Assembly (NCBI RefSeq): GCF_029870285.1
Contig: NZ_JACSYA010000044.1
Coordinates: 1 to 36,932, forward strand
Length of the DNA stretch: 36,932 bases
Origin: Delftia sp. PS-11
GTDB taxonomy: Bacteria; Pseudomonadota; Gammaproteobacteria; Burkholderiales; Burkholderiaceae_C
Direction: 5' to 3'
Below, in pieces: positions 29,479-32,915 of this stretch; the stretch's first letter is position 1; the number at the start of each line of letters is the position of its first letter. The position numbers were made by a program, and so were the translations under genes. The notes beneath the pieces were generated by a model that saw only the letters and a list, made by a program, of their open reading frames with translations, had not been told where the DNA came from and did no database searches.

Positions 29479-30216
29479 ATGGCTCAAAAAGTAGCGTATG
29501 TCACAGGGGGGATGGGAGGCATTGGAACGGCTATCTGCCAGCGTCTGCACAAGGAAGGCTTCAAGGTCATTGCCGGTTGCGGCCCGTCGCGCGATTTCCA
29601 GAAATGGCTCGATGAACAAAAGGCGCTGGGTTACACCTTCTACGCGTCGGTTGGCAACGTTGGCAATTGGGAGTCGACCGTCGAGGCCTTCAATCAGGCC
29701 AAGGCAGAGCATGGCACCATCGACGTGCTGGTTAACAATGCGGGCATCACCCGCGACCGCATGTTCGTCAAGATGACGCCCGAAGACTGGCAGGCCGTGA
29801 TCGAAACCAACCTCAACTCCATGTTCAACGTGACCAAGCAGGTCGTGGCCGACATGGTGGAAAAGGGCTGGGGCCGCATCATCAACATCAGCTCCGTCAA
29901 CGGTGCCAAGGGGCAGGCTGGACAGACCAACTACTCGGCTGCCAAGGCCGGCATGCACGGTTTCACCATGGCGCTGGCGCAGGAGCTGGCAACCAAGGGC
30001 GTGACCGTCAATACCGTGAGCCCTGGCTACATCGGTACCGACATGGTCAAGGCCATCCGTCCCGATGTGCTGGAAAAGATCGTGGGCACCATCCCCGTCA
30101 AGCGCCTGGGCGAGCCCAGCGAGATCGCCTCGATCATCGCCTGGCTGGCATCGGACGAGGGCGGCTACTCCACCGGCGCTGACTTCTCGGTCAACGGCGG
30201 CCTGCACATGCATTGA
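29479..30216 (+). CDS. phaB: Acetoacetyl-CoA reductase PhaB
   Basis: This 245-residue short-chain dehydrogenase reduces acetoacetyl-CoA with NADPH to (R)-3-hydroxybutyryl-CoA, the monomer used by PhaC. The dinucleotide motif is VTGGMGGIG at the N-terminus. NNAG appears in LVNNAGITRD. The catalytic Ser, Tyr and Lys are in NISSVNGAKGQ and TNYSAAKAG. AGGAGA five bases before the ATG is a strong ribosome site, stronger than that of phaA. It closes the phaCAB operon and is followed 21 bases later by a terminator. Confidence 0.96.
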   Translation: MAQKVAYVTGGMGGIGTAICQRLHKEGFKVIAGCGPSRDFQKWLDEQKALGYTFYASVGNVGNWESTVEAFNQAKAEHGTIDVLVNNAGITRDRMFVKMTPEDWQAVIETNLNSMFNVTKQVVADMVEKGWGRIINISSVNGAKGQAGQTNYSAAKAGMHGFTMALAQELATKGVTVNTVSPGYIGTDMVKAIRPDVLEKIVGTIPVKRLGEPSEIASIIAWLASDEGGYSTGADFSVNGGLHMH

Positions 30217-30307: not shown

Positions 30308-30330
30308 AAAACCCGCCGCAGCGGGTTTTT
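30308..30330. terminator. Bidirectional Rho-independent terminator
   Basis: AAAACCCGC, loop CGCA and GCGGGTTTT form a GC stem flanked by A-run and T-run, so it can terminate in both directions. On minus it would end the ABC-F/micro-ORF transcript; on plus it backs up the pha terminator. Confidence 0.82.
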
Positions 30331-30420: not shown

Positions 30421-30480
30421 TCAGCGCTTGCGATCGCGTTCGTCTTCGGGCCAGATGGACATGATGGCGGTGGTTTGCAT
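30421..30480 (-). CDS. Micro-ORF B (19 aa), WPEDERDRKR tail
   Basis: This 19-codon ORF has AGGAG seven bases before its ATG. The peptide ends IWPEDERDRKR. The same W-P-x-[DE]-[DE]-R-D-R-K-R pattern appears in the larger micro-ORF 105 bp upstream on the same strand, which argues against chance. It lies downstream of the ABC-F gene and before the bidirectional terminator. It may be a small translated protein or a leader peptide. No family is recognised. Confidence 0.5.
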   Translation of the reverse strand: MQTTAIMSIWPEDERDRKR

Positions 30481-30585
30481 GGAAAATCTCCTGTACTGCT
30501 CTCTTAACGTGGGCTGCCTGCAGTGCGTTGACAGGTTTTCGGAAAATTTTTGGGGAATCCGCAATTTTTTTCGGCCAGGCCCAGG

Positions 30586-30711
30586 TCATGCCTGGAGACG
30601 GCCGAGGGGTGCGCGCTTGCGGTCACGGTCATCCCACGGCCAGACAGCTTGTGCCATCGCGGCGGCTGCAAAGCGGGCTTGCAGGGCGGTGTCGGAAAAG
30701 ATGTTGGTCAT
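30586..30711 (-). CDS. Micro-ORF A (41 aa), WPWDDRDRKR motif
   Basis: This 41-codon ORF has a strong ribosome site (AAAGGAG, eight bases before the ATG). The N-terminal part (MTNIFSDTALQARFAAAAMA) is mildly amphipathic. The second half contains AVWPWDDRDRKRAPLG, a highly charged motif shared with the 19-residue ORF downstream. It starts 191 bp after the ABC-F stop on the same strand, so it could share that transcript or have its own promoter in the spacer. No clear -35/-10 pair was found there. No function is assigned. Conservation of this peptide in related genomes would settle whether it is real. Confidence 0.6.
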   Translation of the reverse strand: MTNIFSDTALQARFAAAAMAQAVWPWDDRDRKRAPLGRLQA

Positions 30712-30902
30712 GGTGGTCACTCCTTTGCGTGTTCAACGCCAGGGGTGCACCACCGGTTGACACTGCCATTCACCAAGACGCAAATAAATGCAAGATTGCA
30801 GTGATCACAGCGTCAGCGCGGCGACAGCATTGCATGAAGATCCGGCTGCATCTTCTTGCTGTGCAAGGCTTTTTGCGGCCCGCCCAGGACGGGCCGATGC
30901 AG

Positions 30903-32915
<2,013 letters not shown>

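Follow-up and report, generated by a model that had tools for sequence, protein, structure and literature searches.

Two very short open reading frames (ORFs) lie between an ABC-F ATPase gene and a convergent phaB gene in the window, that is, the whole 36,932-nt stretch of Delftia sp. PS-11 DNA analysed here, and both encode the motif W-P-x-[DE]-[DE]-R-D-R-K-R. Are these ORFs genes, and what would turn them on? We consider it highly probable that they belong to a translated peptide family of the Comamonadaceae, whose members have their own promoters and would be read by an ECF sigma factor linked to DUF3619 and DUF3106, released by stress and subject to feedback from a site within its own gene.

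Two motif-bearing ORFs and their signals

The original prediction described two tiny same-strand ORFs of 41 and 19 aa sharing a motif, and both are present on the minus strand. ORF B ends with the motif, and ORF A contains it and runs eight residues past it. The strong ribosome sites claimed for both correspond to an AGGAG that, read from the sequence, lies 7–8 nt before each ATG. The original prediction did not include the promoter-like element that each ORF has of its own, and missed the regulatory link. The features are as follows, in minus-strand reading order.

30903..32915, minus strand: ABC-F ATPase gene, upstream neighbour, outside the peptide unit (profile match and synteny)
30734..30762, minus strand: ORF A promoter element, 23 nt 5′ of the ATG, with −35 TGTCAAC (30756-30762), a 17-nt spacer and −10 CGTT (30735-30738)
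30720..30724, minus strand: ORF A Shine-Dalgarno sequence AGGAG (read from sequence)
30586..30711, minus strand: ORF A, 41-aa peptide MTNIFSDTALQARFAAAAMAQAVWPWDDRDRKRAPLGRLQA then stop, the long first-copy type also found in other genomes of the genus
30613..30642, minus strand: ORF A motif WPWDDRDRKR
30505..30533, minus strand: ORF B promoter element, 25 nt 5′ of the ATG, with −35 TGTCAAC (30527-30533), a 17-nt spacer and −10 CGTT (30506-30509)
30488..30492, minus strand: ORF B Shine-Dalgarno sequence AGGAG (read from sequence)
30421..30480, minus strand: ORF B, 19-aa peptide MQTTAIMSIWPEDERDRKR then stop
30424..30453, minus strand: ORF B motif WPEDERDRKR, with the stop codon directly 3′
30308..30329: inverted repeat AAAACCCGC..GCGGGTTTT in the gap between ORF B and the convergent phaB, a candidate shared terminator (by eye)
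29479..30216, plus strand: phaB acetoacetyl-CoA reductase gene, convergent neighbour, outside the peptide unit (profile match and synteny)

From this layout, each ORF appears to be its own transcription unit behind TGTCAAC-N17-CGTT. The inverted repeat at 30308..30329 was not among the terminators listed by a terminator scan, and an Rfam search gave no matches at gathering scores. Considered as a possible cis-acting leader peptide, ORF B has no co-directional gene downstream of it in the window, the convergent phaB lying there. The ABC-F ATPase has its best NCBIfam match to PRK10636, which we take to be YheS, at 705 bits, under the model cut-off of 917.

A peptide family found in the Comamonadaceae

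A back-translated motif pattern matched only two sites in the 5.44-Mb genome of the window, namely ORFs A and B, with no match for the reversed control. In wider sets the pattern, which is biased to close relatives, gave matches in 49 of 53 genus genomes (mostly two to three copies; 45 of the 46 with ≥90% completeness and ≤5% contamination) and in 44 of 299 family genomes (17 of 141 genera). Of 398 phylum genomes it matched 6, every one of them from the window's family; the reversed pattern matched nothing in any of these sets. The two sites in this genome, the empty controls and the recurrence across the genus agree with the earlier judgement that chance duplication is unlikely. At least 118 stretches with the motif were found in a named genome collection, and the titles of the matches listed are mostly of Comamonadaceae genera (among them Comamonas, Delftia, Acidovorax, Paracidovorax, Simplicispira, Giesbergeria, Curvibacter, Xylophilus, Diaphorobacter and Corticibacter); some others are MAG titles or odd ones. 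Three loci (L077, L102 and L184) were read as chance motif matches and removed before counting, together with duplicates of identical DNA.

What defines the family is W-P-x-[DE]-[DE]-R-D-R-K-R, after which comes either a stop codon or a brief A-P-x-R tail, and its 185 distinct copies encode peptides of 15–42 aa, the long first-copy type and the short type both recurring in other genomes of the genus. In a comparison with type I toxin peptides, which combine a hydrophobic membrane helix with an antisense RNA, the distinct peptides have, by eye, no membrane-length hydrophobic stretch and carry a charged segment at the end; they are probably cytosolic. Neither four representatives nor one divergent 25-aa member matched any Pfam or NCBIfam family at E<=1, and a full-text literature search found no paper on the WPx[DE][DE]RDRKR motif. 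As far as these sequence searches reach, the peptides form an unnamed family so far found only in Comamonadaceae.

Codon-phased conservation and translation

An ATG start was present in 183 of the 185 distinct copies, and 179 had a Shine-Dalgarno sequence matching at ≥4 of 6 positions, the start codon of each copy having been picked for the best Shine-Dalgarno match. Conservation within the motif is partly by construction, because the search pattern fixed codon positions 1 and 2, and since much of the motif is fixed in this way the codon-phase test was run outside it. For the 89 distinct ORFs of the 24-aa class, comparing copies in pairs gave 11613, 8846 and 15789 differences at the first, second and third codon position of the N-terminal part and 4438, 3221 and 10133 in the tail, and an upstream control was even by phase (26631, 26544 and 26588). 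Hence third codon positions vary most outside the motif. In an alignment of 26 copies (26 of the 62 listed reference loci), sequence conservation starts near the ribosome site and ends at the stop codon. Codon-phased conservation of this kind supports translation, and with it the view that both window ORFs are translated and belong to a tiny-peptide family. The proposal of a small-protein family has thus held up, with a motif conserved across genomes, codon-phased change and, for four representatives, no Pfam or NCBIfam match.

A shared promoter element before the peptide genes

The element seen before both window ORFs recurs across the family. Among 163 distinct regions taken from upstream of the copies, 141 carry a strict GTCAAC-N17-CGTT shortly 5′ of the ATG, with TGTCAAC in 119 of them and CGTTG in 129. 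Among the 22 non-strict regions, judged by eye, seven have a 16-nt spacer, nine a one-base −35 variant (five GTAAAC and four GTCATC, two of the latter also with a 16-nt spacer) and one an altered −10, and five are second tandem genes without an element of their own; most peptide copies therefore have their own promoter element. In a subgroup of the genus (L011, L016, L030, L098 and L161), the second tandem peptide gene is promoterless and seemingly co-transcribed with the first.

Strict elements number 3 in the window's genome against 2 reversed-control sites, and 91 against 39 in the 53 genus genomes (our own count). Because these counts only modestly exceed the reversed control, the case for a promoter rests on position, not number. 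A promoter profile, trained partly on the ORF A and ORF B sites themselves, matched these in the window's genome with E values of 4.5e-5 and 6.3e-4, respectively, and they were the only sites under E 0.01.

A full-text literature search found the same core in the report on SigAb, an Acinetobacter ECF sigma factor (PMC12153292). In that report, the SigAb promoter was mapped by mutagenesis to a −35 GTCAAC and a −10 CGTT, with a 17-bp spacer (16 tolerated) and an A/T-rich UP stretch; the direct targets named are its own operon, relA and the small RNA SabS, and SigAb responds to copper stress. The sigma factor is reported to be specific to Acinetobacter and to regulate itself through a site upstream of its gene (PMC12153292). 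Set beside that account, the peptide promoters have an identical core, a 17-nt spacer (16 in seven peptide regions) and an A/T-rich upstream stretch, and both systems appear to combine a small direct regulon with a short transcript among its targets. Two differences stand out. The short targets in Comamonadaceae are codon-conserved peptides, whereas that of SigAb is the sRNA SabS, and the window's family has a site inside the sigma gene, whereas the SigAb site is upstream. The promoter of a sigma factor described as specific to Acinetobacter is thereby extended to quite different bacteria.

A candidate sigma factor and its operon

The genome of the window contains an operon of an ECF sigma gene, a DUF3619 gene and a DUF3106 gene (contig C2, about 145.4-147.2 kb). 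By eye, DUF3619 has a single membrane span and DUF3106 is exported, so that the operon resembles that of SigAb, AabA and AabB in joining an ECF sigma factor, a transmembrane protein and an exported protein in three genes. The putative link to SigAb rests on the promoter and on this operon layout. By profile, the sigma factor resembles NF006550 (PRK09047), scoring 257.8 bits (cut-off 173), and its partners match DUF3619 (PF12279) and DUF3106 (PF11304). A full-text literature search found no paper with DUF3619 or DUF3106, and therefore no promoter or function for them.

Support for a connection between this operon and the element comes from other orders of the class. DUF3106 had matches in 115 of 369 class genomes, and the 30 best loci, all from other orders, included 25 in which the sigma gene was located and which were counted. 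GTCAAC-N17-CGTT precedes the sigma gene in 12 of these 25 loci, with 0.04 expected from dinucleotide shuffles; 13 have no site there. The recognition helix is similar between these sigma factors and that of Comamonas (GCSEGSVKTH and close variants), a likeness that the search expression favours.

Within the family, the promoter profile matched in 159 of 299 genomes and DUF3619 in 256, with both in 154. Thus 154 of the 159 profile-positive genomes also carry DUF3619 (Fisher p 1.2e-9 over the 299 genomes, phylogeny ignored), as do 43 of the 44 genomes with the peptide motif (p 0.006, phylogeny ignored), the exception being G068. DUF3619 was present without a profile match at E 0.02 in 102 of the 299 genomes, the profile search having used stricter filters. 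It also occurs in 213 of the 255 motif-free family genomes, and since the sigma factor is so common without the peptide, the regulon would be wider than the WPxDERDRKR peptide.

A conserved site inside the sigma gene

The strict pattern has a third match in the window's genome, within the ECF sigma coding sequence.

G000:C2:145798-145825 (L061 1501-1528): GTCAAC-N17-CGTT inside the ECF sigma gene (strict-pattern search)

This site has the form CGTCAAC, spans the codons R-Q-R-E-A-F-L-M-R-Y and lies about 125 nt 5′ of the DUF3619 start. We dropped the idea that it is a chance match: it matches exactly in all 30 family loci picked only by DUF3619 score, and then in 51 of 51 sigma genes when the gene of the window's genome and those of 20 motif-bearing genomes are added; the genes are related, so that the 51 matches are not 51 independent events. 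The codons that the site requires, CGT, CAA and CGT, are each so in all 51 genes. Elsewhere in the same frames, arginine is encoded by CGT at 28 of 474 codons and glutamine by CAA at 124 of 400, and at the same positions in sigma genes of other orders the three codons are CGT, CAA and CGT in 3, 8 and 6 of 29, respectively.

The simplest reading is that the intragenic site is a selected promoter for DUF3619 and DUF3106 that provides negative feedback. It would be a clean candidate for a promoter embedded in a sigma coding sequence and maintained through selection at synonymous sites.

Other targets of the promoter

Among the best profile scores in motif-free family genomes we inspected 40 sites by eye, a non-exhaustive set, and none had an ABC-F or phaB match in its 2 kb of sequence. 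Three of them precede divergent relatives of the peptide (such as ...NWPSDDRDRRRMPAR). Fifteen precede a family of about 53 aa ending in DRKR or DKKR, in other genera of the family (MKSQHRTE...DKGRKHEAFE...DRRSLARALRFDRKR; L322, L329, L332, L334-L336, L338, L339, L341, L344, L348, L350, L354, L356 and L358); one of these proteins had no NCBIfam match and, in Pfam, a sub-threshold match to YnaL (13.1 bits vs 27). Small exported Ala/Lys-rich proteins follow another 12 sites (L325-L328, L333, L340, L342, L347, L352, L353, L355 and L359; for L326 and L347 the assessment used just the beginning of the ORF). The one compared with Asr-type acid-shock proteins had a weak match of 20.3 bits, below the Asr cut-off of 50, and in our view the WPxDERDRKR peptides are unrelated to Asr by sequence. 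Five sites precede other proteins, four of them with an apparent signal peptide, and the remaining five (L321, L330, L337, L343 and L357) had no plausible target by eye.

A 49-aa small protein (...MPDPRSPEEVLSMLSQNPPEGEYSVDAF, ...PRSPEEVL...) is a second recurrent target of the promoter (L193, L205, L194 and L217-L240). By sequence it occurs in 22 of the 53 genus genomes and is absent from the window's genome; of 17 upstream regions judged by eye, the element is present in 14, altered in one and missing from two.

Alternative readings

Readings other than a sigma-controlled peptide family have to be weighed against the same observations. The loci could be small regulatory RNAs of the SabS kind, their ORFs being incidental or mere carriers, and indeed their transcripts are probably short and driven by the kind of promoter found before SabS, an sRNA reported to be under direct SigAb control (PMC12153292). 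However, the conserved part runs from near the ribosome site to the stop codon and follows the codon phase, and the consensus fold of the 26 aligned copies has three pairs, none with changes on both sides. No conserved RNA fold is thus supported in these copies, an RNA element was rejected, and we hold the sRNA reading to be very unlikely. Slightly less likely again is that the peptides belong to the ABC-F gene as a downstream cistron acting on the ribosome. The position downstream of a same-strand ABC-F gene, also mentioned in the original prediction, is conserved in many genera. Among the first 60 loci, which are 3-kb stretches and include the window itself twice, 50 adjoin an ABC-F gene, phaB or both. 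The link nevertheless looks positional and nothing more: the other 10 lie away from both neighbours and keep the promoter, most copies have their own promoter, and some genomes have copies at two distant loci. We therefore rejected membership of an ABC-F operon.

Another possibility is a genuine promoter that is recognised by a different ECF sigma factor of the Comamonadaceae. Besides the DUF3619-linked gene, the window's genome has 14 other PF04542 matches, several of ECF type by eye, and one of them (L257; contig C4, about 120.8 kb), which we take to be of ECF16/SigF type beside a bufferin-like gene in a buf-like operon, has a promoter of related form, TGTAACC-N16-CGAA. That promoter is an ECF promoter of the same general build, yet it has another −35, another −10 and another operon and appears separate from the peptide regulon, and with this form of its own the ECF16-like sigma factor was the one among the 14 to be set aside as the peptide regulator. 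Both the 12 of 25 DUF3106 loci with the site ahead of the sigma gene and its intragenic occurrence in all 51 family genes examined tie the element to the DUF3619-linked sigma factor, and we judge this reading unlikely. Finally, a chance repeat or a mobile element might be suspected from the multiple copies per genome, sometimes far apart, but the reversed-control motif patterns gave no match in the window's genome or in the genus, family and phylum searches, and genomic position is conserved. When one 24-aa member was compared by tblastn with 72,556 plasmid and 50,697 phage records, no match emerged, and a mobile element was rejected; this reading is extremely improbable.

A proposed stress regulon

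From the genomic evidence, most likely the peptide family is an effector arm of a DUF3106-linked ECF regulon. In this model, which builds on the family, its reading frame, the promoter and its spacing, the intragenic site and the co-occurrence with the sigma factor, TGTCAAC-N17-CGTT before each ORF would be read in vivo by the ECF sigma factor of the sigma-DUF3619-DUF3106 operon. The membrane protein DUF3619, aided by the exported DUF3106, probably keeps the sigma factor inactive until stress occurs, as AabA and AabB do for SigAb; both anti-sigma roles and the releasing stress signal are presumed. Once freed, the sigma factor would turn on the peptide genes and also fire the promoter inside its own gene, yielding more DUF3619 and DUF3106 and so closing a negative feedback loop. 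We would guess that the peptides act as stress effectors, each binding one conserved partner through WPxDERDRKR. The promoter and its candidate sigma factor offer a function-first handle on a peptide family that gene finders may easily miss.

A broader proposal, to which we give even chances, is that in several orders the stress output of DUF3106-linked ECF sigma factors consists largely of tiny proteins, with a different family in each lineage, and that in Comamonadaceae the feedback site moved into sigma region 4 as a promoter for the anti-sigma genes. The lineage-specific families behind one promoter would then include the WPxDERDRKR peptides, the 53-aa proteins (...DKGRKHEAFE...FDRKR), the 49-aa proteins (...PRSPEEVL...) and the exported Ala/Lys-rich proteins. 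In other orders of the class, the promoter occurs a second time past DUF3106, near 2.8-3.0 kb of L266, L284, L286 and L290 and on the strand of the sigma gene, where it precedes a lipoprotein-like gene, which we assume to be DUF4382-like.
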